Of a DNA stretch of 64,000 nt, positions 34,501-56,710 are shown piece by piece. The stretch is taken from contig WFMF01000565.1 of assembly GCA_011033025.1 (NCBI GenBank), positions 1 to 64,000 of the forward strand, in the 5' to 3' direction. The position numbers and the translations under genes were made by a program. A model generated the notes under the pieces. The model had not been told where the DNA came from. It was given only the letters and a program-made list of their open reading frames with translations, and did not search any database. The first letter of the stretch is position 1. Each line of letters starts with the position of its first letter. This DNA comes from Beroe forskalii. Taxonomy: Eukaryota; Ctenophora; Nuda; Beroida; Beroidae.

Positions 34501-37148
34501 GCCCTTTTTATATCTATATGCTATGTCGTTTTTCATAACTCGGCTTAGGAAAGTCGTAGAGACTTCATTTTGGGCTCAAAAGAATCGCAATAAACGTGTT
34601 TTTATACAATTGTTGACACCAATATGCCGTAGAACCCTTCAGGGAAGAAGTTATGGGCCAAAAACCATTTTCGGAGTAGTCCGCAAACCATTATTTGGGC
34701 TATATTGGTATCTTGGCTCAGGAAGGTCGTAGAGGCTTTATCTTGGGCTCAAACGAATTGCAATGACCACGTTTTTTATACAATTGTTGACACCAATATG
34801 CCGTAGAACCCTCAGGGAAGAAGTTATGGGCCAAAACCATTTTCAGGTAGTCCCAAAACCATTATTTGGGCTATATTGGTAGCTTGACTCAGGAAGGTCG
34901 TAGAGGCTTCATCTTGGGCTCAAACGAATCGCAATAAACGTGTTTTTATACAATTGTTGACACCAATATGCCGTAGAACCTTCAGGGAAGAAGTTATGGG
35001 CCAAAAACCATTTTCGGAGTAGTCCACAAACCATTATTTGGGCTATATTGGTATCTTGGCTCAGGAAGGTCGTAGAGGCTTTATCTTGGGCTCAAACGAA
35101 TCGCAATGACCACGTTTTTATACAATTGTTGACACCAATATGCCGTAGAACCCTCAGGGAAGAAGTTATGGGCCAAAAACCATTTTTGGAGTAGTCCATG
35201 AACCATTATTTGGGCTATATTGGTAGCTTGACTCAGGAAGGTCGTAGAGGCTTCATCTTGGGCGCAAACGAATCGCAATGACCACGTTTTTATACAATTG
35301 TTGACACCAATATGCCGTAGAACCCTCAGGGAAGAAGTTATGGGCCAAAAACCATTTTCAGAGTAGTCCGTGAGCCATTATTTGGGCTATATTGGTATCT
35401 TGGCTCAGGAAGGTCGTAGAGGCTTCATCTTGGGCGCAAAAGAATCGCAACAGCCGTCTTTTTATACAATTGTTGACTCCAATATGCCGTAGAACTCTCA
35501 GGGAAGAAGTTATGGGCCAAAAATCATTTTTCAGAGTACTCGCAACCCATTCTTTGGGTTATAGTGGTATCCCATTGCTCGGGATTTTAAATTGGTATTT
35601 CGACTCATGAACTCAGGCGGGCTCAAGCAGTTCCTATAGACAAAAAAACGCGATTTTATTTCATAGCGGCCACAAACCATTTTTCAGGGTACCCGCAACC
35701 CATTCTTGATGTGAAGTATTCATATATTCTGTTGGTGCTTATTTGCCTAGTGCTGCTAGGCCTGCTGACTCAGCTGTGAAGCAGCTGGTGTCGGCAACTG
35801 GATGAACAAGACGTGTCAGCTTGTCAGTGACAGGCAAGTGCATCTATTTTCTTTCATAGAGACACCAAATGTCTTGATTATAAGGTGACTACAAATTTCA
35901 ACCATTTAAGCTCAAAAGCTTAAAGTATTAATAGATACCTAAGTATGCTAAAATTTATGTCTGTGTAAAACTTTGTTAGTTGTTGAGGAATGAACAGAAT
36001 CTGAAGTGAAGGGAAAAGAGTGCAGATGCTTATATCATGGTACACCAAGTTCTGGATTTCTACCATGTCAAACAAGAACATGATTGGTCAGAAGCTGTAG
36101 GATTATGTCCTAGCTGTAGGATAATGTCCTAGACTCAAAGCTGTAGGACAGTGAGTGAATACCTACTTACCTACATACAAAACTACAAAAGCTCCATAAA
36201 ATCATGGGTTTTGGGTCTCTAGGAGCTGCCTGAGCCCGCCTGAGGTCATGAGTCGAAATACCAATATATCCCGAGCAATGGGTCATGGGTAGCTAGAATC
36301 ATGGTTTTGATCCATAACTTCTTTCCTGAGGGTTTTCAAGCATATTTGTGGCAGCAGTCAAATAAAAACATTGCCATTGTGATTCACTTCAGTTCAAAAT
36401 GAAGCTTCTTGAGTCCGCCAAGATTCCACTATAGCCCAAAGAATGGGTTGCAAGTACCCTGAAAAGTGGTTTTTGGCCCATAACTTCTCTTCTGAGAGTT
36501 TTCGAGTATATTTGTGACGACAATCGAATAAAACATGGTCCTTTCGATTCATTCGCGCCAAAGATAAAGCCTCTACGACCTTTCTGAGCCAAGATACCAA
36601 TATAGCCCAAATTATGGTTCGCAGACTACTCCAAAAATGGTTTTTGGCCCATAACTTCTTCCCTGAGAGTTCTGCGGCATATTGGAGTCAACAATTGTAT
36701 GGAAACGTGGTCATTGCGATTCGTTTGCGCCCAAGATGAAGCCTCTACGACCTTTCTGAGCCAAGATGCCAATATAGCCCAAATTATGGTTCGCGGACTA
36801 CTCCGAAAATGGTTTTTGGCCCATAACTTCTTCCCTGAGGGCTCCACAGCATATTGGTGTCAACAATTGCATAAAAACGTGGTCATCGCGACTCGTTTGA
36901 GCCCAAGATAAAGCCTCCACGACCCTCCTGAGCCAAGATACCAATATAGCCCAAATAATGGTTTGCGGACTACTCCGAAAATGGTTTTGGCCCATAACTT
37001 CTTCCTGAAGGTTCTACGGCATATTGGTGTCAACAATTGTATAAAAACACGTTTATTGCGACTCGCTTGAGCCCAAAATGAAGTCTCTACGACTTTCCTA
37101 AGCCGAGTTATGAAAAAACGACATAGCATATAGATATAAAAAAAGGGC
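34501..37148. mobile_element. Foldback element with 171-bp tandem units in both arms
   Basis: The ends 'gcccttttt' + 'atatctatatgctatgtcg' (34501) and its mirror (ending 37148) form terminal inverted repeats. The left arm (34501 to about 35640) is a head-to-tail array of a ~171-bp unit. 'tttgggctatattggta' recurs at about 34694, 34865, 35036, 35209 and 35380. The right arm (about 36210-37148) holds the same units inverted. A central ~570 bp is unique. I see no target-site duplication and no transposase. The frames in the arms are the same repeat read in different registers. The design matches Foldback-type elements. Confidence 0.85.
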
Positions 37149-37882
37149 GTGGCCCAAAAAACCACCGCCCCCATGGGGTAGGTTGGTAAACTTTTTTTTC
37201 TGGGCTCCCGGGACCCAGCACCAGCCCCCGAAACAGTAAATGAATTGTTATAAAAAATTTCCAGGTAAGCTGGAATTTTTGCAAAAATTGGGTGGATTAT
37301 GAGGAATCACGCGTATCATTACTCACACTTATCTCATTATCTTAACGAACTAAGGTGTCGTCCCCCATACATTATAACTTAAAACCCGCACGAACTTGTC
37401 GGCCCCAATACCTTACCTACCCGCAACGAACTAATTCGGCCCCACTTAAAAAACTCTCGAACTTCTCAACTCACCCTCGTACGCATGCTTCTCTCTAAAT
37501 ACCTGACTTTTTCTTCACACTGATCACTCTTATACCGGGAACTGTGACTGTGAACGCTGCCAGGCGTCTCTGCTTATCTTAAGCTGCAAAATAAGAAATT
37601 ATGAAATTGTAAATATAATTACAGTACCGTACTATATTATATTTATACTACTATTATAGTCTAAAAGCAGTGTAAACATGTCAAAACTTGTAATTAAAGT
37701 TACACGCTACTTATAAGTATAACAACTTGAAAATCATAAAACAGCACTTAATGAAATAATAATAACAGGCAAAAATAAGGTGCCGGAAAAAATAATAAGG
37801 AGTTCGATTTTCTGTAAGTGTAACGCAGCAAATCGCACGACTGCCTCCCCCGATCAAAAAGAACCAGCAGCAGGGCTCCACA
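37149..37882. other. Non-coding spacer
   Basis: Between the foldback element and dispersed-repeat copy 3. It is pyrimidine/AT-rich with overlapping 60-codon minus-strand frames at 37711-37933 that carry no recognisable motif. Confidence 0.4.
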
Positions 37883-39470
37883 TGTGATAACATAAGAAAG
37901 ACGAATGGTAGTGGGGGTAAGGGGGTTTATCACTTAAGTCGTAAAGTAGTATGGTTCATCTATAGCTGTATGCTCGTAGGGCTCAGGGGTTCTGACGTAA
38001 CAAAATTCGCTCACTATGCTATCCCTATGACGTATCAAAATAAACTCTATATATGGCGTATTCATTGCCCTCAGGAGCTCAGGGTCTATATTGTATCGTT
38101 ATGGTTAAATTCATTGTAATTGTAAAGCATGAGACTTAATAATCAGCAGGGTTGCGTTAAGGTTCGTGCCACGTGTCCTTTTAATGACCCGGGAATACAG
38201 ACTGTCGTGCGATTCGATACGTCACATTTCAACTCCCAATTTCAATAGAAGGTGCTGTGCTGCAGCTGTAAATTAAATTGTCATCATTTGTCAATATGAA
38301 TAACCAAAAGGAACAAAGAGAAACTCGGTTATAAAAAGTAGAAATGCCCGGGTGGCTTTTTGAGGTTGTTAGTTTGCAATTGCATGTTTTGAAGTTCTGA
38401 CAAAAATGAATATGAAAATAATGATCGCATCACATTCACAATATTCCTACAATAACTACAATAAAATAAAATGTGGATGCTTTTCGCCTTAGCGCCGGCA
38501 CCACTTAAATCACTATATAATCATAATGTCGCCCATACTCAACGTTCTACTGCGTGGTTTGCACCACGACTTCAATCATGGGGCGAAAAATCACAAAATC
38601 AATCATTGATTAATAACGAAAACGTGTGTATCCGTTACCATTACACTTATAATAACAACAAATATACGTACAAAAATACGTACATAAATACGTATTATTG
38701 ATTAAAGCTATCATGTTCCCTATTTAGTATTTGAAGTTCCGCCTAAGGCGGGACACTTATAAAACTATAGCATATCAATATGGACTGGACGGCTTTGACT
38801 ATAGTAAATACGGACTTATAACTTTATAAAATAGCACTATAAGAGCTCCACCATATAGCCGGTGGGACACTCTAAAGAACCCTACAAATACTTATAAAAT
38901 AGGACTACAAGAGCTCCACCTTATAGCCGGTGGGACACTCTTAAGAACCCTAGTACAAATACGTGGCCCTAACCTATTCCTAAGACGTGAATCAGCCACG
39001 TATCAACAAAACATTCAAACAGCCACCACCTACTGCGAATTACGCATTGTTAAAGTGCTGGGTCACGTGACTGACACAGCGCGTTACTCCGCAACGCACT
39101 GTTACCTTACTGCCCTGCGTTCTACCGCAGCTGTATTATGTGACGTATACTAAGGTGTATCGTGTTACCTAATGATGACGTTTTGTATGACAGTTTCCTA
39201 GGACCTATGCTGTTATCTGCAGCTGCAGCTTCTATACCTACTTATCTACCACTTCTATATCTATAAGAGTATAACTATAAGTGCCTATGATTTCCTAAAC
39301 CCTAAAAGACGCCCTATCTAGATTATATCTACCCTACGGCTTTAACAGACGCCCTATCTCTATTATACTTGCCCTAAAACCTAAAAGACGCCCTATATAT
39401 TACTCTATGATACTACCTTAACCTATAAGCCCTCTAATACACAGTACAGGGGGACCATGGGTCTCCCACA
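37883..39470. repeat. Dispersed repeat, copy 3 (truncated or solo unit)
   Basis: Matches copies 1 and 2 from 'gaatggtagtgggggtaag' (37903) to 'gggggaccatgggtctccca' (about 39446), then stops abruptly at 'caca', where the other copies continue for ~2.2 kb. The interval could be bounded by 'tg' (37883) and 'ca' (39470), as a solo LTR would be, but I find no matching flanking duplication. Three direct copies in 39 kb is notable. Confidence 0.75.
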
Positions 39471-39639
39471 ACCAAGAACAGGTCAGTTTTTTTCCGCCGA
39501 AGGATTCAATCACCACGGTTTTTGTAATCATTCTTTAACATCTTCAATACATCATTGTCGACTTTTATTTTTATTTGTTGACTTCTTTTTATGGAAATAT
39601 ACATTCTAACTTTCTAAAAACAGTTTATAAGACTAATAA

Positions 39640-40853
39640 GGGATCGTTCACATATTACGTAATCAGCCGAGGGGGGGAGGGGGTTTCCAAATGATTACGT
39701 TTGATAACGAGGGGGGAGGGGGGTTTGGCCAATGATTACGTAATCAAAATATCTAAATTTTCATGAAAATTTCAAGGATTTTTAAGAAAATTTCACAAAT
39801 TTTCATGAAAATTTCAAGAATTTTCATAAAAATTTGAAGAAATTTCATGAAAATTTTTATGAAAATTTAAAGGATTTTCGAATTTTTATGAATTTTTATG
39901 AAAATTTTTATGAAAATTTGAAGGATTTCCGAATTTTTATTACCAAAAATTAACCATTTGCAGAAAAAATGTCAAAATTTCATAAGTATGATTAAACATG
40001 ATCTACTCTAACTCAATATGGTTCAGAATGTATAGTGCTGCCCATATAGGAGGGATGTACTCCATTCATTGAACTCTTCCAAACCACTTCAGTGCCCCTT
40101 TGTATATAAGGTTTGCTGCTCTGTGCTTGATCAGAGGTTCGGAGGCCTTTCTTTCCCTAGAGCTCTAGAGTTGATGCCAGAGCAGGTCTTGGCGTACATC
40201 CGCAGCTCCATTATCCAGGAATCAATCTTTTTGATGAAGGTGTAGGAAGCTGCAGTTGTCTGTGAAGTTGCCAGACTCTGATCTGGCACTTAGAGGCTAG
40301 GGATGATCTGAATCTTGGGTTCTGTCGGCTTTGGTGGCAGATGAGCAGGACAGAGATACTGAACTTTGGTTCCATCGGTTTTGAAGGAGGTTGAGGTGGG
40401 ACCAAGACGTTGATTTCTGGCTCTTTAGTGGAACCGGGGGCCTCAGGTGTAGAGGAGGAGGAGGAGGATGATCTGTTGGAGGTAAAGGAGGATGATGAGC
40501 AGATGAGGATGAGTTGGAGGAAGAGAAAGAGGAGGAGGTGTCCATCTCATTGTCAGAGGAGTTGTCGTAGGCAAGATTTCCGTAGGAAAAACTAAAAGAA
40601 GCTTTGAATGTCATCTTCAGGTCGATGATGTTGATGATTGAATTCAAACACACGATACTGTTCTAATTTTTTGTCAGTTAATATAGTTTTTTGGTGACGT
40701 CAAAAAAACTGAGGGGGGGGGGTTTGGCCATGATTACGTAATATTTTCCGAAAAAGAGGGGGGGGGGTTTGGCCATGATTACGTTTGATTACGGAGGGGG
40801 GGAGGGGGGTAAAAAATGCCCAAAAATTGATTACGTAATATGTGAACGATCCC
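39640..40853. mobile_element. 1.2-kb inverted-repeat element (gggatcgttcacatattacg)
   Basis: The left end 'gggatcgttcacatattacg' followed by 'taatca' and a G-run is mirrored by the right end (finishing 'gaacgatccc' at 40853). The subterminal DNA on both sides has matching 'gggggg..tttggcc.atgattacg' words. The inside has a block of 'aaaatttcatgaa' repeats (39760-39960) and a minus-strand open frame. Short relatives lie at 51878-52060 and, partly, at about 57205-57270. It is probably a non-autonomous DNA transposon; the target duplication is unclear. Confidence 0.85.
40297..40653 (-). CDS. Hypothetical serine/proline-rich ORF inside the 1.2-kb element
   Basis: A 118-codon frame with an inner Met at about codon 14 ('MTFKASFSFSYGNLAYDN'), then a serine run, proline-rich segments, and a stop at 40297. 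An overlapping frame (40211-40405) continues with similar composition, so a frameshift is possible. It may be an accessory or decayed protein of the element, or host DNA carried inside it. No family is recognised and the composition is low-complexity. Confidence 0.25.
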   Translation of the reverse strand: MCLNSIINIIDLKMTFKASFSFSYGNLAYDNSSDNEMDTSSSFSSSNSSSSAHHPPLPPTDHPPPPPLHLRPPVPLKSQKSTSWSHLNLLQNRWNQSSVSLSCSSATKADRTQDSDHP

Positions 40854-41757
40854 ATATGTTGATTTTCAGACATAGGAGCTCCAGTTGAACAGTTGAAGTG
40901 TGTGATGTTATCTGAACAGTTGCCACTTGTCATGTACATGTGTTTGTTGCAACTCTGAAAGGTTTCGGTATTTGGTTATTCTATATTTCATTCCATACTC
41001 AGATAACAGATGACTTGAGACTTCCAAACCTCAGTTAAGCAACCTATTAGTATAGTTAGCAAACTATAAATCAATCTCAATTTTTGAACAAATATAAACT
41101 TCTGTTTAAGTTTCAATTATTGTTACCAAATAAGACCTATTGGATTAAAAATACCATGAAGCAATACTCAGGAATACAATAGTCCAATAGTGAAATAAAG
41201 ATGCTATGTTTATACAGGATGCATCTCTCACCTGAATCAACCATATCTGAGAAAATGGTAAGTTCTATTACCTTTGCTTATTTTGACCCTGTTGTTAAGC
41301 AAGTGTGGGTGTAAGACCCCTAAAGCTATAATGGAAATAACAACCAAACTATTATCTTTTGTAGGGTGTCTCTATTTAAGTATTAAATCTAAGTAGTATT
41401 TACATAGTTACACCACAATGATTCTCACTTAAGCAAGTTATTATGAGTGAGGTGTTGGCCCACCTATCACCCATGAGTGATGAGGTATCAAGTGTAACCA
41501 ACAAAGCAACAGTTAGAAGTGCACTCTCAAACGAACCCTTGGAAGTGTCTATTAGTCTTTAGTGGTTCAGATCTGTCTGAGCGGTGGCTCAGGTGTTTCA
41601 AACTGGATAGACCTTTCAATGGTCTAGTTGCATTCAGTGAATAGCATAGTTGAGCAGTTGAGGTCAGATCTTTGTCTATAAGCATATAGGACATCAACAG
41701 ACCTGATTGAATATCAGAAGGTCTATAACAGGCCCATCTTGAAGTGCCTAGTCATAT
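40854..41757. other. Non-coding stretch before the 4.2-kb element
   Basis: No gene is recognised. From about 41520 it shares loose words ('acagacct', 'gaggtc', 'tgtctat') with the tandem repeat at 46012-46320. This region and that one were one repeat field before the 4.2-kb insertion. Confidence 0.45.
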
Positions 41758-41776
41758 GACAGACCGGCTAAAAAAT

Positions 41777-42240
41777 GGGTGGACTTAACTCCGCCGCGGA
41801 CCCGCTGCGGACCCGGTGGACCCGCTGCGGGTCCGCCGCGGACTCCACTAAAGTCCACCATAAAATTTTTTTGGTGGACTTTGGTGGACCCGCAGCGGAC
41901 TTTTCGAAACTCCGCCGCGGAGTGGTGGACAGTCCACCGAAAAAGTCCACCAAAAAAGTCCACCGTGGACTAAATTAATTGTGGAGGTAAGTCCGCCGCG
42001 GAGTCAGTGGACTCCACCGGCGGAGTCCACTGGCGGAGTCGAGTCCACTGGCGGACTCCACCAGTGGAGTCCACTGGTGGACTCGAACCACCAGTGGACT
42101 CAACTCCGCCAGTGGACTCGAATCTGCCAGTGGACTCGACTTCGCCAGTTGACTCCGCCGGTGGAGTCCACCAGTAAACTCCACTGGTGGAATCATATCC
42201 GCCAGTGGACTCCGCCAGTGGACTCCGCCATTAGGGCTGT
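41777..42240. repeat. Left arm minisatellite (gtggactccgcc)
   Basis: Tandem 12-18-bp units on the theme 'agtccaccggcggagtccac', partly self-complementary. They read on either strand as long Trp/Ser/Pro frames, which are not genes. The same units appear inverted at 45490-45990. Confidence 0.9.
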
Positions 42241-43049
42241 ATGGTTTTTGGAAAGGAGTGCCATGTGTACACATAGCTTTCTCCGATTCGGTCGATATTT
42301 CAAAGGGACCATCCATAAAGGGCGTCGCAATGAGCGGGGAGGGGTGAGTAGACCCTCTCAGATATGATCGATATTTCAAAATCAACTTGGGGGCCATCCA
42401 TAAAGGACGTCCGCAAAATTTTGGCCATTTCAGACCCCTCCCTCCCCCTTGTCCGCAAGCGTCCGCAATCCAGAAACCCCTAATTTCAATGCTTTTTCCA
42501 GCTGGAATTGGAAAAAGGGTGTGTCCGGTGCGAACGTGAAATTAAGGATTTGACCAAAAATAAACATGTCACACCTCTTTTTAAGACAAATGGGGGATAA
42601 TTAGATTACCACCAAAAAGTTGATATTAGCCCAAATCTGAGAGGGTCCTGGGGGATTCTGGCCAATACGTCTCCCATGTAAACGAGAGCCTTCATTTTCC
42701 ATGACAATATGACGTCACTCAGAAAAATATAATCAAGCGCATCTAGCGCTTTGAAGGTTATGGTCGGGATTAGGGTCAGGATTTGTTAGGTTTAGGGTCA
42801 GGATTAAGGTAAGGGTTTTGGTAAGAGTCTCGGTAAGGTTTAGGATAGAGAAAAATTGACCTTCGGATCTGTGACGTCACTCAGCCCCGTTTACCTTATC
42901 GGACATAATTATCACGGACATTAAATTCACGCTGAGCACCTCAGCGTGAATATTAATGTCCGTTAAAATTTTGTCCGTGATACTAATGTCCGTAATATTC
43001 AGCCTTCAGGTCCGTGAAAATTAAGTCCGGCATTTCGTCCTAAAATTTG

Positions 43050-43145
43050 GTAATCCGACGGAAGTTCGAACGACGGAAGTTCGAACAATTCGAACTTCCG
43101 TCGTTTCGAACTTCCGTCATGTTTGGCGACGGAAGTTCGAACTAT
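43050..43145. repeat. Palindromic 'cgacggaagttcgaac' cluster, left
   Basis: Alternating 'cgacggaagttcgaac' and its reverse complement, able to form hairpins. A second cluster is at 43755-43875. They bracket the 43150-43750 segment. Confidence 0.85.
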
Positions 43146-43336
43146 AGACTTGCTTTTCCTGCCTTTACTTATAGAGATCTGTTTAAGCGCTAGTGTTAGC
43201 CATAGTACCATTGTTTCACATATGATATCCGGGGGTAGCCGTGGATCAGATGATGGTCCCAGTGGGACGTTACATCATGCGAGTACCTTCTCGAGTAGCT
43301 TCTGATTCCAATCATTGTGCTGATCAGGTGATGTAA

Positions 43337-43573
43337 ATGATCCTGATTGTGTGTACATGGCAACATACGAGATGTCTACTCGCATATCGCACTGAAAGGG
43401 AAATTGCGATTGTGATATCAGCTATCGTCATTACGCAATGGGACCCCCATAATGTTTTCCTGTTCATCTCCCCCAATTCCAGTTCATCTCCCCCTGCAAA
43501 GCTAGTTGTTGGGCTCATTCGTGGACGCCAGAACCTCCCATACCACTCCTTCCGCTACACTCTCAACAAGTAG
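43337..43573 (+). CDS. Hypothetical short ORF between palindromic clusters
   Basis: 78 codons. The C-terminal half ('AKLVVGLIRGRQNLPYHSFRYTLNK') looks protein-like rather than repeat-like, and its end loosely resembles that of the 56499-56687 frame ('ADVVRGRFQLNTVFHVVLTK'). A stop codon lies directly before the ATG. It may be the last exon of something captured, or chance. It is not recognised. Confidence 0.2.
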   Translation: MILIVCTWQHTRCLLAYRTEREIAIVISAIVITQWDPHNVFLFISPNSSSSPPAKLVVGLIRGRQNLPYHSFRYTLNK

Positions 43574-43754
43574 AAAGGCGACGTGTGCTAGTATCGGCGA
43601 ATGGACAAACCCTACAAAGGCAAGCTCAACGTCTCCCACGAAACCAACGTCACCGACAGCTTTCTCTTGTAAAGCTTTAGCTAAAGGTAAAAGCTGATGA
43701 GCTTTCCTTGATAAAGCAGTAGCTATAAGTAAAACCTAAATGTATAAGGAGCAA

Positions 43755-43875
43755 TGAGCAATTCGAACTTCCGTCGTTCGAACTTCTGTCATGTTTGGCG
43801 ACGGAAGTCAGAACTGCTCATTTTGTTCGAACTTCCGTCGTTTCTGACTTCCGTCGTTCGAACTTCCGTCGTACA
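43755..43875. repeat. Palindromic 'cgacggaagttcgaac' cluster, right
   Basis: The same unit as at 43050-43145, in both orientations. The two clusters act as inverted repeats about 600 bp apart and may be the ends of a small element. Confidence 0.85.
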
Positions 43876-44222
43876 ATCCTAAAATTTATAGGGTAGAGAC
43901 GCACAATTTCTGACCTCCTCTCTTGAAATGCACAAATAATAGAATTTGTAAGGAAATTATGCTTCTTTTTTTTTGTTGAAAACCCACGGTGGGGTACCCA
44001 TAAGGGTTTTGAAACAATATAATATATATTTACAGTATTCATATCAATAAAAACCACATGCACAAAGAGATGCCAATTAAGGCAAGTGTCCTCAGCACGA
44101 GTGGCCGGATTGCCATGCTGTTACGCCACACATAATACCCAAAAACAACTCTCAAAACATATAAATACACAAAATGCAGACACTTAGAGTTTTGAGAAGG
44201 CACATGTGAGGTATGTGTTCAT

Positions 44223-45170
44223 TCAGCGCGGATTAGGACGCAAACTACGCGCAGGTGTTGAAGTCCGGCCTGGTGGTGCAATCCCCGGGATGACCGATGA
44301 CGAGGCAGACCTCATGGCAGATGATGATGAGGAAGAGTTGGTTGACAGTTTGGAGGGTTCCTGGTCCTTCGTCCTGCTGCAGACAGCACCGTTCCTGATG
44401 AAGTAATACTGTCGAGGATCACTGCTCATTTTCTCCTTGATCTGCGCTACAAGATTCTTCCTCTCTTGTCTCTCTTCACGGCTCCTGTCGGGGGCGACGT
44501 ACACCTTCCTGAAACGCGTCGACTCTCGCAACACCTTACCATTCCTCAATACTGTAGCCGCTGCCTCAATGCTGCCGAGAATCACCTTAACGGGTCGCTC
44601 TGCTCCTTCCTTCACCGTTCCGACACGGTAGCAGTCTCTGACAGAGGGATTCGAAGTCGAACAGCTCACACTCATCAAGTCTGCTACCTTGACCCCGAGG
44701 TGTTCATCAGGGCCTTCTCCGAGTCCAAACACCATCACTGTTCGCTTCTTGGCATCCTCCATTTTAGCAGACTTAACAGCAGCCTTTACTTGAGTTGACG
44801 TCAATCTCCCCTCACATCCCTGCTTTACAGCGTCACTGAAACTCCGGATTTCAGTCTCCACAGTTTTCTGCACCACCTCTACCTGCTCTGTTTTACTCTT
44901 CAGTAGTTCGTCCTGGAGGTTCAGCAACGTCTTCTGGTTTCCAATCTGTTCCTGATTCAGCTTCTCAACACAAATAGCAGCTGATCGCAACATTTCCTTG
45001 CTCTTTCCTAGGACACTCACAGCTGATAGAACAAGATTGGTAAGAGCCGTCTTGTCACATTTCATCACCGAAGCCTTGTTGACACCAGTCCAGTTGACTC
45101 CGAAAACAGCACCGAAAACGGAATCCATGTCCTTTTCCACGCTGTATAGTTTTTCCAAAGAAAAGTCCAT
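44223..45170 (-). CDS. Intact ORF1-like protein (coiled coil + RRM-like, retrotransposon ORF1p type)
   Basis: 315 residues, uninterrupted, with the start at 45170. The layout is an N-terminal region; a predicted coiled coil at about 65-115; 'FSDAVKQ' at 111-117; an RRM-like domain at about 142-225 ('RTVMVFGLGEG', 'RPVKVILGS', 'FRKVYVAPD'); a basic C-terminal domain at about 226-262 ('DRSREERQERKNLVAQIKEK', 'YYFIRNGAVC'); and a Ser-rich tail ending in RPNPR. This arrangement is typical of the first protein of L1/CR1-like non-LTR retrotransposons, which binds RNA as a trimer. No endonuclease or reverse-transcriptase frame lies downstream. The gene sits in the middle of an inverted-repeat DNA element, so it may be transposon cargo or a domesticated stand-alone copy. 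A decayed relative is at 18086-18975. Confidence 0.7.
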   Translation of the reverse strand: MDFSLEKLYSVEKDMDSVFGAVFGVNWTGVNKASVMKCDKTALTNLVLSAVSVLGKSKEMLRSAAICVEKLNQEQIGNQKTLLNLQDELLKSKTEQVEVVQKTVETEIRSFSDAVKQGCEGRLTSTQVKAAVKSAKMEDAKKRTVMVFGLGEGPDEHLGVKVADLMSVSCSTSNPSVRDCYRVGTVKEGAERPVKVILGSIEAAATVLRNGKVLRESTRFRKVYVAPDRSREERQERKNLVAQIKEKMSSDPRQYYFIRNGAVCSRTKDQEPSKLSTNSSSSSSAMRSASSSVIPGIAPPGRTSTPARSLRPNPR

Positions 45171-45489
45171 ATTGTAGCACCATGAAATTGTACACAGCTG
45201 TGTACAAAAGGTAAAGGTTGTAGCTGAGTGCGAACAAGTTGCAGTTTGCTGATAAGAGAGCTGCTAATTTAACACGCACAATAAAACTGATAAGTAGCAA
45301 TGCTTAGTTGAAGTGGCTGGATCGAGCGTGAATACTAATGTCCGTGAAGTTTTATGTCCGTGATAATTATGTCCGATAAGGTATATCGGACATAATGCGG
45401 ACGTCCGCAATTCATGGAAATTTTGAGCGATTTGACGGCTATTTCACCAGAAAATCATGGAATTTCGGGCCAAAAATGTTATCCGCAAG

Positions 45490-45995
45490 AGGACTCCGCT
45501 GGTGGAGTTGGACTCCACCTGTGGACTCCACTTGTGGACTCCGCTGGTGGACTCCACCTGTGGACTCCGCTGGTGGACTCCACCTGTGGACTCCGCTGGT
45601 GGAATCCACCTGTGGACTCCGCTGGTGGAATCCACCTGTGGACTCCGCTGGTGGACTCCACCTGTGGACTCCACCGGTGGACCAAAGTCCGCTGGTGGAG
45701 TCCACCTGGGGAGTCTACCGGTGGACAAAAACTCCGCGGTGGACTCCAATCCACGGCGGACTTTTTTCACTGGTGGACTTTTTTGGTGGACTTTTTCGGT
45801 CGACTGTCCACCAGTGCGCGGCGGAGCCCGAGCGGACCCGCAGCGGACCCACCACTCCGCGGCGGAGTTTTGAAAAGTCCGCTGCGGATCCACCAAAGTC
45901 CACCAAAACATTTTTATGGTGGACTTTAGTGGAGTCCGCGGCGGACCCGCAGCGGGTCCACCGGGTCCGCAGCGGGTCCGCGGCGGAGTTAAGTC
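45490..45995. repeat. Right arm minisatellite (gtggactccgctg)
   Basis: Very regular 24-27-bp units ('actccgctggtggactccac', 'ctgtgg') up to about 45690. Then come larger palindromic words with 'cgcagcggaccc', which mirror 41777-41930. The array is younger and more uniform than the left arm. Confidence 0.92.
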
Positions 45996-46011
45996 CACTC
46001 ATTTTTTAGCC

Positions 46012-46330
46012 GACAGACCTATTGAGGACTGGGACCATTCACTCTTATAGACCCTTTTGAGGTGTCAGTCATGTATGTGACAGAGTGATCATATGACAGA
46101 GTGACAGACCTACTGAGGTCGGCTCTTATGAAAGACCCTTTTGAGGTGTCTAGTTATGTGACAGAGTGACAGACCTTTTGAGGACGACTCTGTAAGACCC
46201 CTTAATGGTGTCTAGCAATGGTCAGAGTGACAGACCTATTGAGGTCGACTCTGTAAGACCCCTTTGAGGTCTTTAGAGCTTTAGCAATGTGACAGACCAG
46301 CAGACCTATTGAGGTCTTGAAGTGTTCATT
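46012..46330. repeat. ~63-bp tandem repeat (gacagacctattgaggtcg)
   Basis: Five loose units with 'gtgacagacct.ttgagg' and 'ctctgtaagacccctttgagg'. The 4.2-kb element inserted into this array, so its 8-bp target duplication lies within one unit. Confidence 0.8.
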
Positions 46331-47099: not shown

Positions 47100-47480
47100 A
47101 GGATAATTTAAGCGTCCCAGGGAAAGGTTCTCACCTCATTTCTATAAGTTGAAAAGCTGCATATAGAGCTTCCCTGCTTCTGAGAGGGAAAGTTTCTTAC
47201 TCAAGTCAGTCCTAATTCTGACCAAGCAGCATAGCGCCTCCTTGCTTCCGAGAGGGAGAGTTATAAATCAGTTATGAAAGTATAAACTGATCAAGCAACA
47301 TGAAACCTCCCTGCTTCTAAAAAGAAAGGTTTATAATTCAGTTCTATAAACTGACCAAGCAGCATATGGAGCCTCTGCTCCCGAGAGGGTTACTATCTAA
47401 CTCAGTTCTAAAAAACTGATCAAACAACATACAGCCTCCCTGATATGACAAGAAGGAAGGTTTTCAATTTATCAAGCAGC
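47100..47480. repeat. ~68-bp tandem repeat
   Basis: Five diverged units carrying 'ctgaccaagcagcat', 'cctccctgcttc' and 'gagagggaaagtt', followed by 'ctcagttct'. No coding meaning is seen. Confidence 0.75.
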
Positions 47481-48280: not shown

Positions 48281-48281
48281 T

Positions 48282-48427
48282 TTAGACCCCAACTAATCGT
48301 GACATGACGCGTCACGTCACGCGTCACGTCATGCGTCCCCTGTTCGGAAGAAAATCCTAACTAATCGTGACGTGACGCGTCACGTCACGATCTCGCGCGC
48401 ATCATGTCACGATTAGTTGGGGTCTAA
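48282..48427. mobile_element. MITE-like element with CACGTCACGCGT core
   Basis: The ends 'ttagaccccaactaatcgtg' (48282) and its mirror (ending 'ggggtctaa' at 48427) pair. The inside holds repeated palindromic words 'gtgacgcgtcac'. The flanking duplication cannot be fixed, because the end itself starts with TTA. Confidence 0.8.
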
Positions 48428-49029
48428 GATTTCGTTATATTCACTAAACTATAATGTGCGAGACCCCGGGTAAGTCCTCAATGAGTTGTTATACCTTGTA
48501 TCCTTCCCTTGAAGGTTCAGTGTAGCTATAGGTTTTCAACCCACGTGGGGTTAGAAAGAGAGTCTACATCGCAGTAGAAACGATCATTATATGATGACTT
48601 ATTGCTCATTGCTCAACGTGACTAGCATGGTATTGTACTTGCACTTACAGTTACAGGCATACACATTACACAATTCAATAATTGAACAGTCTAGATGTAT
48701 ACAATATACCTTTTCCACACCGAGTAACGGTTGTTTCATTTTTCTTCCCAACAACAAGTTGACGCAGTTCGAGAGCTTTGGGGGACTCCAATAAGTGTAG
48801 TAAAGGTCTCAAAACCATCATAAATAGTGTTAAATCTTCTGAATTCTTTAAGACTTCTCGTATCATTGAAACTATAAGTGAAAATTTGTCGTATTGCCTT
48901 TCCCATCATTTGTTAGATGACGATGGACGAGGGGTTATAATTACAAGCTGCCTATTTCATTCTGGAATCTGGTTTGAGTCATCTTACCGGCTCAGTTCTC
49001 TCTCCTCTTACTATAAGTATGCTTCAAAC
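48428..49029. other. Non-coding stretch
   Basis: Two overlapping frames on opposite strands (48591-48866 region) without recognisable motifs. Nothing else is seen. Confidence 0.35.
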
Positions 49030-49126
49030 AGGCTCATGTGAACGTATCCGTAGGAGAAATGCCCCTCACCCAAGCCCCCGAAGGGGGCGTTAAGGGTGAG
49101 GGGTTTCTCCGAGGAGAAGAGAACAT
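49030..49126. mobile_element. Hairpin element, about 97 bp
   Basis: 'ggctcatgtgaacg' and 'ggagaaatgcccctcaccc' are mirrored by 'gggtgaggggtttctcc' and 'acatgagcc'. At the tip is a second perfect hairpin, 'gcccccgaagggggc'. Part of the stem ('gaacgtatccgtaggag') recurs inverted near 26158-26177, so this is a dispersed family. Confidence 0.8.
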
Positions 49127-49254
49127 GAGCCAATTGATTCCCTCCTCTCCTCCCTATTACCTACTGTTTATTTTCCAGTAACATGTGATGATAGAGGATC
49201 CGGTTACCCGTTTTCATGAAAAGAAAGTGGTAAAAGTGTCACAAGAGTTGTGAT

Positions 49255-49815
49255 TTTTGTCCAATGGATCCATTGGATCCATCATGTCCAGTGGACATGT
49301 CCAATGGACGTCCATTGGACATCCAATGGACATCCATTGAACATGATGTCCATCGGTAAAAATGTCCAATGGTGTTCAATGGATCCAATGGATCCATTGG
49401 ATCCATTTTTGATGTTCAATGGACATGTTTAATGGATCCAATGGATGTTCAATGGATCCATCTGAGTGGATCCAATGGACACAATCACCAAACATGGTTT
49501 GGTAGATGGACATCAGTCTGGTATTTTTGTTCAGTGGATCCATTGTGTTCATTGGATCCAATGGATCCATTGTGTCCATTGAACACCATTGAACATGTCC
49601 ATTGGATCCATTGGATCCGTTGAACATTGTGTCCATTGGATCCATTTTGTCCAATGGATCCATTGTGTCCAATGGATCCATTGTGTCCAATGGACAAAAT
49701 GGATCCATTGGATCCAATGGAAACAGTGTGCAATGGATCCAATGGATCCGGTGGACATGTCCAATGGTGTTCAATGGACACATGGATCCATTGGATCCAA
49801 TGGACACAATGGATC
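49255..49815. repeat. BamHI-type array (tggatccaatggatccattgg), left arm
   Basis: A dense array of 9-10-bp half-palindromic words 'tggatccat/tggacatgt/tggacacaa'. It produces long artificial frames (MDPLDPMDTM) on both strands, which are not genes. Confidence 0.93.
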
Positions 49816-49884
49816 CACGAACAAAATACGAGTTCGATGTCCATCTACCAAAACCATGGTGGGCAGATGTTGACTTTTGTAATC

Positions 49885-50210
49885 GGCGCCGATCAGCGCT
49901 GATCAGCGCCGATCCACCGCCGATCGGCGCTGATCGGCGCTGATCAGCGCGATCGGCGTTGATCAGCGCTGATCAGCGCCGATCGGGCCCGATCAGCGCT
50001 GATCAGCGACACCGCCCGATCAGCGCTGATCAGCGCGATCAGCGCCGATCAGAAATTTCAAAATTCTCATCGGCGGTCGTCGGCGCTGATCGGCGCCGAT
50101 CAGCGCTGATGGCCTAAAATCAGCGCTGATCAGCGCCGACCAAAACACCCGCATAAGAGCCTTTGTAAACGCCATTTTTCCTCGAGTCGGGCGCCGATCA
50201 AGCGCTGATC
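49885..50210. repeat. Decamer array (gatcagcgct/gatcggcgcc), left arm
   Basis: A 10-bp repeat alternating between 'gatcagcgct' and 'gatcggcgcc'. Because AGCGCT and GATC are palindromes, both strands read the same. It is much richer in CG than its flanks. Confidence 0.93.
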
Positions 50211-50389
50211 GGTTGATCGCTAACTTGTTAAATTTGAACTGATATGGGACATTTGGGCGTGTTTGCCTCAAAATATAATTCCTGCTGACCGTGCAGGTGA
50301 CATTTTACGGCAACTCCTCGCACAGGGCTGTGACATTAATATCAACAATCACATCAACAACAACATAAACCAGTTTTACGATACAGTTA

Positions 50390-51427
50390 TGCATTGACGT
50401 GACAGTAGAACCGCAAGTACAACACAGTTTCATTTCCACGACACAGTAACACCGTTACGACACAGTAACATCGTTATGGCACAGTAACACCGTAACACTA
50501 ACACCTTAACAGCACAGTAAATTAATGTCGTTACGACACAAAAGCACCGTTACGACACAGTAACACAGTTACTACACAGTAACGCAGTTACGACGAAGTC
50601 ACGCAGTTACGATACAATAACGCCGTTACGACAAAGTAACATCGTGACGACACAGTTTCATTGTAAATGTAACCGCACAGTAGCTCACTTACAACTCAGT
50701 AAGGACGTTACGACACAGCTGTAACACCATTACGACGCAGTTACGACACAGTCTGTACGCACTACGCAGTTCCAACACAGTAAAACAGTTACGAAAAAGT
50801 CACGCAGTTACGGCACAGTCAAGCAGTTACGACACAGTAACACCGTTACAACACAGTAACGCAGTAACACCATTACGACACAGTAGCACCCTTACGATTG
50901 TCTCACGTTGACAGACCCTCTCGAGAATCAGCGCTGTGGCTGGGTCATACATCGTACGACAACCTTACGACGCAGTTACGACACAGTAACACCGCTAGGA
51001 CGCAGTTTCACGCAGTTAAGACAAAGTCACATTGTTACGACATAGCAATACCGTTACGACACAGTTTCATTGTTAAGTCACAGTAAAACCTTCACAGCAC
51101 AGTAAGGACGTTACGACACACCACGGCTGTTAAACGACACATTCAGGCCGTAATTAAGTGCTAAAGAAGCGCTGTTAAGACACCGTAAGTGTAATGCCGT
51201 TACGACAAAGTAACACTGTTGTACGGCAGAGTAACGTTGCTACCCCAGAGTAACGCAGTTACGATAGTACGATACAATAACACTACATTACGACATAGTA
51301 ACACCGTTACAACACATTTATTGTAAGGACGTTATTACATTGTTACACCATGCAGTTACGACACATTTAACGTTGATGCCCCAGAGTAACGCAGTTACAA
51401 TATAAATATACAATAACACTGTTACGA
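50390..51427. repeat. ~20-bp minisatellite (gttacgacacagtaacacc), left arm
   Basis: About fifty degenerate units of 18-21 bp. The same array appears as its reverse complement ('gtgtcgtaacggtgttac') at 51830-52422 and 54811-55230. Confidence 0.92.
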
Positions 51428-51663
51428 CTAGCGAACCACCGGTTTAACCGTATCTCAATAAATCCGGTCACGGAATTTCGGTTGGCTGAAAACGCCCAGT
51501 CAACCGATATTTCTTTTCTAGTTCTGTTAACCGACTGTTAACCGACTGTTTTAATCTGAAATGGTTGATTGCGAGATCAAAATATTCGGTTACGGTTTCG
51601 GTTAGCCAAAACACCTGGTTAACCCTTATTCGGTTTCCGTTCGGTTAACCGGTCCTATCCTAG
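51428..51663. mobile_element. Small nested element (accggtttaaccg / cggttaaccggt)
   Basis: 'actagcgaaccaccggttta' at the left and 'cggttaaccggtcctatcct' near the right form an imperfect inverted pair. The inside carries more copies of 'cggttaaccga'. It interrupts the 20-bp minisatellite. Confidence 0.6.
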
Positions 51664-51877
51664 TCACGCTGTCATGACAGTAACACCGATACGACACAGT
51701 AACACCGTAATAACAGCCTTACGTCGTTGTATGATATCCTACCCTCGTGCGCTCGCCGCAACGTTTCACAGCTGGACCTCAGAATTGCTGATAGAGTGAT
51801 AGGGTCGGACATCGCCCGTCGACTGTGAGTGTGTCGTAACGGTGTAACTGTGTCGTAACTGCGTAACTGTGTCGTTA

Positions 51878-52060
51878 AGAATCGTTCAAATATTACGTTA
51901 TCACCTATATGAGGAGGGGGTTTCCAACTGATTACGTTACACGCGACGATAACAGGGGTATACGTGTTTAGCAACAGGTAAACCACTGTAAACTTGATTA
52001 ACAGGGGGAGAGGGGGTTAAAATCGGCCAAAAATTGATCACGTAATATGTGAACGATCCC
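51878..52060. mobile_element. 183-bp MITE, relative of the 39640 element
   Basis: Ends 'agaatcgttcaaatattacg' and '...acgtaatatgtgaacgatccc' match the 1.2-kb element at 39640-40853. It is flanked by TA on both sides (51876-51877 and 52061-52062), a plausible 2-bp target duplication. It sits inside the right-arm minisatellite. Confidence 0.8.
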
Positions 52061-52425
52061 TAACTTCGTAACGGTGTCGTAACACTAACTGCGTCGTAGC
52101 GGTGTTACTGTGTCGTCACTGCGTGACTGTGTCGTAAGGGTGTTACTGTGTCGTGATGGTGTTACTCATACTGCGTGTTGTAATAGTGTTACTGTGTCGT
52201 AATAGTGAAACTGTGTTGTAACGGTATTAGTGTTACTGTGTCATAACGATGTGACTGTGTCGTAGCTGCTTTACTGTGTCGTAACGGTGTTATTGTGTTG
52301 TAACGACGTTACTGTGCTGTAAAGGTGTAACTGTGTCGTAACGGCGTTACAATGTCGTTACGGTGTTACTGTGTCGTAACGGTGTTACTGTATTGTAACG
52401 GTTCTACTGTGTCGTAACGGTGTTA

Positions 52426-54807
52426 GGGCCAAATCGCACGGGGACAAAAATCGTGGAAACTTTCATGTCTCACCAAAATTCGGATTTTACCTATCGTGCG
52501 ATTTCATTTTTTTAAGGCCACTTTTCGTGAGATCTGAAAACGTGGTGAGAAAAGTGGTGAAAAGTATCACCGGCCTCAGGAGAGGTGACAGTTTTCACCA
52601 CAATCGGTGAAATCTTTGTGGTGAAATCAAAACTCCGTCCGTTTTCAATATCGGTGAGATTTGTCACCACTGATCGCGTGCAGTGACGAAATGATCACGC
52701 GCATGGTCACGTGATAGTGGTGGAAAGTTTCACGATGGTACAAAAAACCAAAACGCACGGTAGCGGTGAGATGTAGCGTTACAACGCACGCAGTCATTGA
52801 CCAATCAGCGCGCTGCATTCCAAGAGTGCGGGAAACATAGTAATTAGTGGGAAATACAAATAGCACCAATCTTTTTAAATGTATTGTTCATATCTTGCTG
52901 TTCCTTCTCATTTCTGTAGTGTTGCCACTCTGTATTTTGTTTCTTCTCCTGTATTTTCTACCCTTTACAATTATGGCATTCCATTGAAGCATTGAAGGTT
53001 GTGTTAATTCCGACTGATTGATGTAGGAACTTTACTGTAACCAGAAACAAACATCCAGCAAAAATATGTGGCCAAGAATAGACAAAAGTCGAATCAAATA
53101 GCAGAGAAAAACAGTGAACTGCAGTGAAAGCAGTGATAGCAGCAGCCCAAACTCTGTAAAAGCAATCATTTCGAGAAAGTTAAAATCATAATATGCAAGA
53201 AAGATATTTAAAAAGATACCAAACCAAAAACGAGAGAATGAAATACAACATCTTGAAATAAAGTGTGGAATTTGCATTTGATTTGTGTTGATCAGTTGCA
53301 TTGCCATGTTGCCATGGTAACAAATTCTTCGGAAATAGCAATAACTGAGAGTGAGTGAGAGCAATACGTCATTATCATTAGTAACAATGGTGTATTACTT
53401 TTTCTCACACACGGAGGAGCGGACGATAAATGTCGCCTAATTACCGGTTTGCAGTTTGGTACATTGTGCAATTACTGTCCCGTGAGAAATGTAAAATAGG
53501 CACTTTAAGTCATTGACATACCATATTCAACCATAGTAATTACGTCATTCTCATTTGTCTCATTAACAGAGTTTTGCAAAAACAGAGTTTCACCAAATGT
53601 AAATTGCTCATTTTTAGCCATTTCCTTTCATCATTTCGTATCTCTTTCCAAGTTCTGTTGTAACTGAGGCGTTTTACAAAGTAACATGCTACCAAGATTA
53701 ATTCATTTTCTCATTTGTTTGTTTTCCATAATTATCGTTTTTACTTCCAAAATTGCTAGTGTTTCATCTCAACACATTTTCAGCCAATAATCTTTCGATT
53801 GCAAGACCTTTGAGATTGATCCATGCTTTGATTCAATTCGTTAAAAATTTTCGTCCTCTACATAGGCTTTGCCAGCCCCTTCGAGCCCTGTGTGCTACAC
53901 GATTTATACTGTTTTGCAGTTGCAGTACACTTTGCTTTTTAATTCTGCGTATCGAATGATTGTATTGCTGTGTATAGCCATGATGATGATGTATGATTCA
54001 TAGTCACATTTTAAGATCGGACATTTTAAGATTGGACGGGAACTACCATGACCCTGCGTTGTTTTGCAAGCCAGCACTGACTTAGTGTTTCCATTTTGCG
54101 ATGGTATTAGAAATTTGTTTCGAGCTTGGCTGTTCACTGGCATGATGTATTGCAGTTTTAAATTGACAGCTTGACTGAAAATGCTCACTGGGCACTGTTT
54201 CGTACCATACTGCTGACTGGTCATCGATCGATACATTTTTATGCTCATGCCAGGCTGCTGACTGGTCACTGACTCCTACCAGACTGCTGACTGTACACTG
54301 GGTGCGTTCAGGGTGCTTGGGGTGTACACTGATTTGAAGGGTTTATTCAGGGTGCTTCGCCTATTTCAGTAATACAGCGGCCTGCAGTCATAAACTCAGA
54401 TGAGCTGTTCAATATTGGACCTCAGCGGGATTGGAACCCACAACCTCCTGAAGCTGAAGACGTTTCGGATGCTCTGCCATTGAGCTATCAAACATGCCAT
54501 TTTATCCGCCGTGCGTTTTGGCGAAAAATAATAATTCCGTGATTCCGAGATCTAGGACGTGACAAATTACACGGATATTTTGTTACGCCGTGCGTTTTCG
54601 CGAAATATATCAATTTTGGTGACAAATTACGTCGTGCGATTTGGTGCAATTTTGTTTCCGCGAAATGCATTGAAAAGCTGTCGCCGTACGTTTTGATCAT
54701 TTTTATACCGGCGTGAAATATTCCGCCGTGCGATCTCACGAAATTTGGACGTGACAACTGACCTGGGCACATTTTTTCACGATTTTTGTCTCCGTGCGAT
54801 TTGGCCC
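52426..54807. mobile_element. 2.4-kb nested DNA transposon with TTA target duplication
   Basis: The ends 'gggccaaatcgcacgg' and 'ccgtgcgatttggccc' continue as mirror images over about 30 bases ('gacaaaaatcgtg'). Flanking bases are TTA at 52423-52425 and 54808-54810, and the interrupted 20-bp minisatellite rejoins cleanly across it. A 3-bp TWA duplication is the habit of PIF/Harbinger elements. The subterminal DNA repeats 'gtggtgaaa/tttcaccac' words. A minus-strand frame at 53032-53364 is hydrophobic and resembles no transposase, so the copy is non-autonomous. Confidence 0.82.
54418..54490 (-). ncRNA. tRNA-like sequence (SINE head or tRNA pseudogene)
   Basis: On the minus strand, 'tagctcaatggcagagc' forms a D-arm with a polymerase III A box and 'gtgggttccaatcccgc' forms a T-arm with a B box ('ggttccaatcc'). 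The anticodon arm is disrupted and the acceptor ends do not pair, so it is not a working tRNA. It lies near the right end of the nested 2.4-kb element. A tRNA-derived SINE fragment is most likely. Confidence 0.55.
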
Positions 54808-54810
54808 TTA

Positions 54811-55230
54811 CTGCGGTTACTGTGTCGTAACGGTGTAACTGTGTCGTAACGATGTTACTGTGTCGTTATAACGGTGTTACTGTGTCGTACTGTTGTAACG
54901 GTGTGTGTCGTAACGTCCTTACTGTGTTGTAAGTGAGCTACTGTGTGGTTACAATGAAACTGTGTCGTCACGATGTTACTTTGTCGTAACGGCTTTATTG
55001 TATCGTAACTGCGTGACTTCGTCGTAACTGCGTTACTGTGTAGTAACTGCGTAACTGTGTCGTAACGGTGCTATTGTGTCGTAACGACATTGATTTATTG
55101 TGCTGTTAAGGTGTTACGGTGTTACTGTGCCATAACGATGTTACTGTGTCGTAACGGTGTTACTGTGTCGTGGAAATGAAACTGTGTTGTACTTGTAACG
55201 GTTCTACTGTCACGTCAATGCATAACTGTA
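54811..55230. repeat. ~20-bp minisatellite, right arm distal part
   Basis: Continuation of the reversed array 'gtgtcgtaacggtgttactg' after the nested transposon. It mirrors 50390-50900. Confidence 0.9.
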
Positions 55231-55394
55231 TCGTAAAACTGGTTTATGTTGTTGTTGATGTGATTGTTGATGTTAATGTCACAGCCCTGTGCGAGGAGTT
55301 GCCGTAAAATGTCACCTGCACGGTCAGCAGGAATTATATTTTTGAGGCAAACACGCCCAAATGTCCATATCAGTTCAAATTTAACAAGTTAGCG

Positions 55395-55800
55395 ATCAGC
55401 GCTGATCAGCGCTGATCAGCGCCGATCAGCGCTGATCGGCGCCTATGAGGAAAAATGGCGTTTACAAAGGCTCTTATGCAGGTGTTTTGGTCGGCGCTGA
55501 TCAGCGCTGATCAGCGCTGATTTTAGGCCATCAGCGCTGATCGGCGCTGATCAGCGCTGATTGATCGCCGATCAGCGCTGATCAGTGCTGATCGGCGCTG
55601 ATCAGCGCCGATCAGCGCCGACGACCGCCGATGAGAATTTTGAAATTTCTGATCGGCGCTGATCAGCGCTGATCAGCGCTGATCGGCGGTGTCGCTGATC
55701 AGCGCTGATCGGGCCCGATCAGCGCTGATCAGCGCTGATCAGCGCCGATCAGCGCCGATCGGCGGTGGATCGGCGCTGATCAGCGCTGATCGGCGCCGAT
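55395..55800. repeat. Decamer array (gatcagcgct), right arm
   Basis: Mirror copy of 49885-50210, about 80 bp longer. The two arms share embedded landmark words such as 'aaaatggcgtttacaaaggc' (about 55453), which appear reversed at about 50157-50177. Confidence 0.93.
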
Positions 55801-55859
55801 TGCAAAGTCAACATCTGCCCACCAAACATGGTTTGGTAGATGGACATCAGACTCGTATT

Positions 55860-56395
55860 TTTGTTCATTGGATCCATTGTGTCCATTGGATCCAATAGAT
55901 CCATTGTGTCCATTGAACACCATTGGACATGTCCATTGGATCCATTGGATCCATTGCACATTGTGTCCATTGGATCCAATGGATCCATTTTGTCCATTGG
56001 ACACAATGGACCCAATGGACACAATGTACAATGGAACCAATGGATCCAATGGACATGTTCAATGGTGTTCAATGGACACAATGGATCCATTGGATCCAAT
56101 GGACACAATGGATCCAGTGAACAGAAATACCAGACTGATGTCCATCTACCAAACCGTGTTTGGTGATTGTGTCCATTGGATCCACTCAGATGGATCCATT
56201 GAACATCCATTGGATCCATTGAACATGTCCATTGAACATCAAAAATGGATCCAATGGATCCATTGGATCCATTGAACACCATTGGAAATTTTTACCGATG
56301 GACATCATGTTCAATGGATGTCCATTGGATGTCCAATGGACGTCCATTGGACATGTCCACTGGACATGATGGATCCAATGGATCCATTGGACAAA
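55860..56395. repeat. BamHI-type array (tggatccaatgg), right arm
   Basis: Mirror of 49255-49815. The internal single-copy words 'accaaacatggtttggtaga' and 'ccagactgatgtccatctac' keep their order in both arms, showing that the arms are copies of each other rather than independent arrays. Confidence 0.92.
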
Positions 56396-56498
56396 AATCA
56401 CAACTCTTGTGACACTTTTACCCAACTTGAAACACGAGCAACATTTCAAACACCATACCATTAGATTTACGTAAGGTGGACCAAATGACCTGAATTTA

Positions 56499-56687: not shown

Positions 56688-56710
56688 TGCATCCCTGCAG
56701 TATAGAGTAC

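Follow-up and report, generated by a model that had tools for sequence, protein, structure and literature searches.

Array-armed foldback elements in the ctenophore Beroe forskalii and their probable mobilisation by Merlin and other transposases

The DNA analysed here is a stretch of 64,000 nucleotides from the ctenophore Beroe forskalii (contig WFMF01000565.1; hereafter the window, part of contig C653), in which members of the foldback element families E1, E2, E3 and E4 were delimited. These are probably non-autonomous cut-and-paste transposons, with E2, E3 and E4 moved by Merlin and E1 by another transposase. Scans for inverted and tandem repeats returned three regions with long, array-filled inverted arms, at the same places where a reading of the sequence alone (the sequence-only reading) had noted them. 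The elements have the architecture of foldback transposons, in which long inverted arms made chiefly of tandem repeats enclose a variable centre, and they carry the marks of mobility, namely dispersed copies, fixed termini and target duplications. Each element was searched in its own 216-Mb assembly, and in the DNA and family searches only the best candidates were scored.

The termini recur across the genome. The E3 terminus GGTAAAAGTGTCACAAGAGTTGTGA was found at 293 places (146+147), the E4 tip GGCAGATGTTGACTTTGC (queried with one additional G and the next bases) at 189 (90+99), the E2 terminus GGCTAAAAAATG at 178 (87+91) and the E1 terminus at 57 (30+27), and the reversed-pattern control gave 0 in each case. 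Inward-facing couples less than 12 kb apart numbered 33 among 100 listed E3 termini (median 878 bp, with 1 other arrangement), 26 among 100 listed E2 termini (median 2202 bp, with 2 others), 23 among 100 listed E4 termini (with 7 others) and 21 among the 57 listed E1 termini (2575–7875 bp, median 2801 bp, with 0 others). The listed E4 pairs comprise 15 of 3.3–6.7 kb and 8 mini-copies with 72–331 bp between the termini, the latter on C182, C198, C227, C326, C348, C358, C377 and C472. Long pairs lie at C55:358390–366264 (E1), C422:12045–18858 and C779:60000–66150 (E2), C214:556547–561786 (E3) and C172:405057–410693 (E4). The genome-wide counts bear out the proposal of several multi-copy foldback families with fixed termini, and contradict the possibility, raised in the sequence-only reading, that no second copy has the same termini.

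Target duplications were examined most extensively in E3, for which 18 distinct copies shorter than 2.5 kb were read on both flanks. An exact duplication of 8 bp was present in 14 of them and one of 9 bp in 1, compared with 0 of 306 non-partner pairs. For E2, both flanks were read in a single copy, that of the window, and the 8-bp duplication reported in the sequence-only reading was found there as GACAGACC on both sides. A de novo scan for duplications returned mainly array artefacts. Short E3 copies are mostly palindrome, made of TGGATCCAT-like units. The long open frames in E3 loci are mainly read-through of arrays, with the exception of L086: E3 ends lie near long minisatellite-like frames in L079, L081 and L072 (263, 483 and 310 codons), and in L086 (3943–6500) two frames close to a copy of E3, of 315 and 537 codons, look like a retroelement polyprotein.

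The region 49229–56422, described in the sequence-only reading as one element with layered arrays, is a nested composite: E4 jumped into a copy of E3, and E4 in turn received another element, which we take to be PIF/Harbinger-like (Table 1). E4 interrupts E3 at positions 258–265. The right-hand part of E3 begins with CACCAAACATGG (55820), and the fragment 56793–57057, read inverted, has ATCACCAAAC at its end, followed by GGCAGATG, which together with CACCAAACATGG gives the 8-bp duplication CACCAAAC. A single, inward-growing element was considered as the source of the layers and rejected, because the inner layer has 189 termini of its own and splits E3 with a duplication. A 186-base marker of the inner layer was matched by all 40 scored candidates (119 at first look), several of them in inverted pairs. 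No E4 terminus was found less than 3 kb from an E3 terminus among 100 listed of each, a comparison that is informative for 51 E4 termini (contigs up to C358). The left section of E3 is 92.7% identical to positions 876–265, the same part as in the right section; it also matches positions 1–614 (91.6%) because E3 is palindromic.

The outer ends of this composite share no duplication. The flank at the 56422 end is CAACTTGA, that at the end of the extra E3 fragment (57057) is its reverse complement TCAAGTTG, and AAGAAAGT precedes the 49229 end, so that the duplications at the outer ends of the window E3 copy are unmatched. On the evidence of one assembled haplotype, the mixed ends may result from a later exchange between two E3+E4 composites. 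Two composites a few hundred bases apart would exchange in their inverted arms, leaving about 290 bp (56423–56712) flipped, after which most of one hybrid would be deleted and one arm lost. It counts against this model that it requires the extra deletion and two composites about 300 bp apart. Hybrid ends with swapped duplications would fit equally well if, in place of ectopic recombination, transposition had gone astray and used ends from two E3 copies lying next to each other, or if fold-back template switching had occurred; one end fragment is truncated within E4, which speaks for such an origin. We regard it as possible, if doubtful, and against it stands that recombination was invoked for the chimeric Galileo copies with unequal duplications (PMC3573991).

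GG termini and duplications of 8–9 bp are hallmarks of Merlin elements (PMC8101967). E3 has a terminal 5'-GG and an 8- or 9-bp duplication in 15 of the 18 copies, and E2 and E4 share the GG tips and have duplications of this length in one copy each (GACAGACC and CACCAAAC). When the arms of the families E1–E4 and of the Merlin array described below were compared with one another by blastn, no match was returned at E 1e-3, in agreement with the earlier statement that the elements share no sequence; given the shared tips and duplication lengths, the description of E2, E3 and E4 as unrelated is doubtful.

Merlin domains were found at 35 places in the genome. In L089, an open frame of 306 amino acids (aa) matches PF12762 at 9e-20, and upstream of it lies an array of TAGTGGAATTCCACTA-type palindromes starting with GGCAGTATCC (one end read). 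A search with this array stretch gave 91 matches, and 16 of the 19 best after the query begin at the same base, GGCAGTATCC. With overlapping and adjacent matches dropped, 41 array places remained for a proximity test, in which 6 of the 35 Merlin places had a palindrome array (TAGTGGAATTCCACTA, GG start) no more than 2.5 kb away, with 0.035 expected. At C263:69513–71458 and C171:120466–123218, inverted arrays flank the transposase gene on both sides (as judged from coordinates only), and one side was seen at the remaining four places; the array-armed element at C188 combines a DDE_Tnp_IS1595 domain with a GG terminus. Merlin-coding elements of this genome thus have foldback arms of palindromic arrays, from which we infer that Merlin (IS1595-type) transposases act in trans to move E2, E3 and E4.

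The arrays of these families tend to consist of palindromic units. Among Tandem Repeats Finder (TRF) rows of the window with unit lengths of 8–70, which overlap and are thus not independent, 19 of 59 in E2, E3 and E4 were self-complementary beyond shuffles (p 0.05). Outside these elements this was true of 3 of 51 rows, and E1, with one row in this range, gave no such excess. Shuffling of single units gave p values of 0.003 for Merlin, 0.06 for E4, 0.11 each for E3 and E2, 0.45 for the 19-bp unit of E4 and 0.8 for the 'alpha' unit of E2. Extra transposase-binding sites in arm repeats have been discussed for Galileo and Tetris (PMC3573991, PMC4079207), and binding sites in the arm repeats are also the mechanism that we favour by analogy. 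The palindromic units would plausibly be repeated transposase-binding sites, so that longer arms would bind or pair better, and the arrays would grow and shrink by ordinary unequal exchange or slippage, a single arm at a time.

Several observations weigh against Merlin mobilisation of E2–E4. No nearby array was seen at 29 of the 35 Merlin places (40 of 65 array candidates were scored), and none of 93 exact E2 termini has a Merlin place within 10 kb. The autonomous copy sought since the sequence-only reading did not appear: 0 of 35 Merlin and 0 of 23 hAT domains lie inside the listed pairs (21 E1, 26 E2, 33 E3 and 23 E4), where the listed E3 termini reach contig C358, a range that includes 14 Merlin and 11 hAT places. 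The role of Merlin in moving E2–E4 is therefore probable. The duplications of E2 and E4 were each seen in one copy, and that of E2 lies within a local repeat of about 60 bp; the E3 copies L046 and L054 have no duplication, and L048 matches at only 7 of 8 positions. At the tip, E2, E3 and the Merlin array have GG alone in common, while E4 shares GGCAG. Finally, self-complementarity is lacking in the 19-bp array of E4 and in the E2 'alpha' units, and shuffling of single units makes a weak test when the units are short.

The same absence of a Merlin domain from every listed E2–E4 pair would be expected if the mover of these foldback transposons belonged to a different superfamily that makes 8-bp duplications (P, hAT, KDZ or Mutator-like). 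Other foldback families are of P type (Galileo, PMC3573991) or are unassigned with duplications of 8–9 bp (Tetris, PMC4079207). The combination of GG termini and 8–9-bp duplications is nevertheless the published Merlin signature, and the hAT dimer domain occurs at just 23 places in the genome, 0 of them inside listed pairs; the transposase classes searched were Merlin and hAT, with P, KDZ and Mutator not among them. We therefore consider another mover unlikely and retain Merlin as the probable one for E2–E4.

E1 differs from the other families at its ends. Its true end, TAATCCACCC(A/G)ATTTTTGC, lies about 150 bp outside the outer bases noted earlier, with unique flanks beyond; these outward 150 bp are common to E1 end loci, whereas L026, L034, L038 and the left end in the window stop earlier. 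The bounds of 34501–37148 given in the sequence-only reading are thus revised: the window copy retains its right end only (37299), and its left side is cut at about 34504. Exact 3-bp duplications were present in 4 of the 5 copies with both flanks (TAA, TAA, TAC and TGA), C171 being the copy without one, and in 2 of 20 non-partner pairs; a sixth copy, C14, lacks the terminus and was excluded. TTA or TAA make up 12 of 29 E1 end trinucleotides. A duplication of TA only was rejected, because in 4 of the 5 copies the partner flanks share 3 bp beside TAATCC. PIF/Harbinger elements have a 3-bp TWA duplication and termini beginning with GG or GC; E1 departs from the latter in beginning with TAATCCACCC.

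As the sequence-only reading had anticipated, arm array length varies between copies: across 30 end loci, E1 arms range from about 1 (L023) to 8 (L030) units of 172 bp. Both arms were read in 7 copies. In 5 of these the left and right arms are unequal by roughly one unit or more (left/right units: C605 5.8/4.7, C337 4.8/3.8, C171 5.8/7.4, C203 3.9/2.0 and window 5.9/4.8), and in C825 (3.7/3.7) and C14 (4.7/4.8) they are even. We compared 72 units from 26 of 28 loci tried, with an anchor that missed some units and an approximate index. Units of the same index in other copies had a likeness of 0.895 and those of different index 0.838; within a copy, the values were 0.853 for same-arm neighbours, 0.861 for units two apart and 0.866 for the opposite arm. 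The nearest relative was an other-copy unit of the same index alone in 26 of 72 cases, an other-copy unit of different index in 25, the opposite arm in 7 and the same arm in 5, the rest being ties. Because same-index units are alike across copies, much of the array growth seems older than the spread of the copies. As far as unit comparison goes, the E1 arrays seem mostly inherited with the element, with gains and losses later; the positional signal is moderate.

These results bear on the suggestion that all three elements depend on a single transposase or a single process of arm building. The shared architecture side by side and the variable arm lengths speak for it. E1, however, duplicates 3 bp and E3 8–9 bp, and the termini differ; since E1 duplicates 3 bp and E2, E3 and E4 8 bp, a single transposase acting in trans for all is unsupported and unlikely, and E1 would be mobilised by a transposase other than that of E2–E4. 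In 16 E3 copies, the first 240 bases of the arms had an identity of 0.947 within the same copy and 0.945 between left and right arms across copies (0.926 left-left and 0.965 right-right), so that concerted arm growth within copies was not seen in this sample. With E3 arms not homogenised within a copy and E1 units keeping some positional identity, a single process is very improbable. What may stand of the common arm-building process is a weaker form, in which Merlin-type elements would repeatedly have gained palindromic arrays. Tentatively, and with somewhat less than even confidence, we suggest that diversified Merlins repeatedly evolved arms of palindrome arrays because the palindrome is the binding unit, E2, E3, E4 and the array-armed Merlin being parallel products. 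That all of this is ordinary satellite DNA or an assembly artefact deserves next to no credence, for although repetitive palindromic DNA is hard to assemble and the E2 duplication sits in a local repeat, there are hundreds of defined termini, many of them inward-paired, with target duplications.

Seven E2 copies outside the window were read and, with the window copy, they fall into two core types. The 'alpha' core (L002, L003, L004 and L006) has inner ~30-bp arrays starting with GGTAAGTGTCCCATATAAC, and the second type occurs in L005, L007, L008 and the window. The inverted-repeat element of the E2 core is also present, in shorter form, in L007 and L008. The 346-aa frame inside the window copy was considered as an E2 transposase and rejected, because a Pfam search with it gave no match, its relatives give 129 genome matches (and 31 in the protein collection), and the insert is missing at the corresponding core position of L007 and L008. 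From its A-run, we take it to be an ORF1-like retro-insert. The core of L003 holds a small inverted-repeat insert of its own, GGGATCATTCACATATTACG... (C200:258226–258566), with TAA on both sides, and a sequence akin to it seems, by eye, to be present at about 51880–52065 of the window. A dispersed repeat, GGCCATCCATAAAGGACGTCCGC..., is common to the E2 core (window 42300–42460) and the right end of L089, beside the Merlin copy.

Table 1. Features of the foldback elements in the window.
Feature	Position	Strand
Left-truncated copy of foldback element E1, lacking its left duplication and the outermost ~150 bp on that side	34504–37299	
E1 left arm, ~6 units of 172 bp (5.9 by unit count)	34542–35571	+
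E1 right arm, inverted 172-bp units, 4.0 or 4.8 by two counts	36417–37104	-
E1 right terminus, minus-strand reading TAATCCACCCAATTTTTGCAA	37279–37299	-
E2 left target duplication GACAGACC	41758–41765	+
E2 foldback element with termini GGCTAAAAAATG...CATTTTTTAGCC; near-palindromic GTGGACTCCAC units make up the arms	41766–46011	
Inverted-repeat element (ACCTTATCGGACATAATTATCAC...) in E2 core; bounds by eye	42894–45397	
Insert with 346-aa frame (44223–45263), A-run end on minus strand; bounds approximate, by eye	43970–45270	-
E2 right target duplication GACAGACC	46012–46019	+
E3 left section, E3 positions 876–265 inverted (49229–49858)	49229–49861	-
E4 foldback element with terminus GGCAGATGTTGACTTTGC; its arms hold GCGCTGATCA arrays followed by 19-bp ACGACACAGTAACACCGTT arrays	49862–55819	
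Inner element GGGCCAAATCGCACGG...CCGTGCGATTTGGCCC within E4, TTA on each side	52426–54807	
E4 target duplication CACCAAAC; inverted partner at 56793–56800	55820–55827	+
E3 right section, E3 positions 258–876	55820–56422	+
E3 duplication CAACTTGA	56423–56430	+
Second end fragment of E3, made up of 80 bp from E4 (56713–56792) and E3 265–1 (56793–57057)	56713–57057	-
E3 duplication, plus-strand TCAAGTTG, the inverse of CAACTTGA	57058–57065	-

Other repeats in the window were noted in passing. A palindromic AGCCGGCCGGCT-type array at 4105–4425, with two rows (4297–4391) self-complementary beyond shuffles, may form the arms of an additional foldback family. Two arrays 37 kb apart, at 1141–1354 and 38824–38952, have 68-bp units that resemble each other closely (GAGCTCCACC..TATAGCCGGTGGGACACTC), and minisatellites of 29-, 17- and 29-bp units are found within about 4 kb at 4931–5968, 6024–6654 and 8756–9058. 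An open frame on the minus strand at 20696–21700 has ion-channel matches (PF07885) and is presumably a two-pore potassium channel.

For foldback elements in general, the responsible transposase has often been elusive. Here, one genome holds several such families, each represented by tens to hundreds of termini with near-identical ends, along with an open-frame Merlin beside an arm of the same design, and it becomes testable why tandem repeats accumulate in the arms of foldback elements. If the proposed evolution of Merlin arms is true, each family would have its own palindrome, and the families would nest, recombine into hybrids and seed minisatellites of the genome. The composite illustrates how nested foldback elements give rise to layered satellites and rearrangements. 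The foldback-type Merlin looks new, as do the families E1–E4, while the general kind is known; a literature search joining Merlin, foldback, tandem repeats and terminal inverted repeats (TIRs) turned up only a plant review.

The foldback plan with arms of short tandem units is also that of FB/NOF in Drosophila and TU in sea urchins. The termini of Galileo, a P-superfamily element of Drosophila, differ from those described here. Like published Merlin elements (IS1595/IS1016-related), E3 and single copies of E2 and E4 combine GG tips with duplications of 8–9 bp, and tandem repeats inside Merlin copies have been reported; the published TIRs measure 24–462 bp (PMC8101967), whereas the arms here consist of palindromic units in tandem, palindrome makes up most of a short E3 copy, and no Merlin or hAT domain was found in the listed E2–E4 pairs. 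Galileo resembles the present families in that one of its subfamilies has tandem repeats inside long arms, in arms that change length independently, and in chimeric copies with unequal duplications, and it differs in that 7-bp sequences bound the chimeric copies (PMC3573991), compared with 8–9 bp in E3 and 3 bp in E1. Galileo was assigned only once its transposase turned up (PMC3573991), and none was found for Tetris (PMC4079207). Tetris/DAIBAM of D. virilis is similar in being a non-autonomous foldback element with tandem arm units of about 220 bp and duplications of 8–9 bp, and in acting as a seed of satellite arrays; it is described from three structurally complete copies with no transposase (PMC4079207), whereas the genome studied here has several families and an open Merlin frame.

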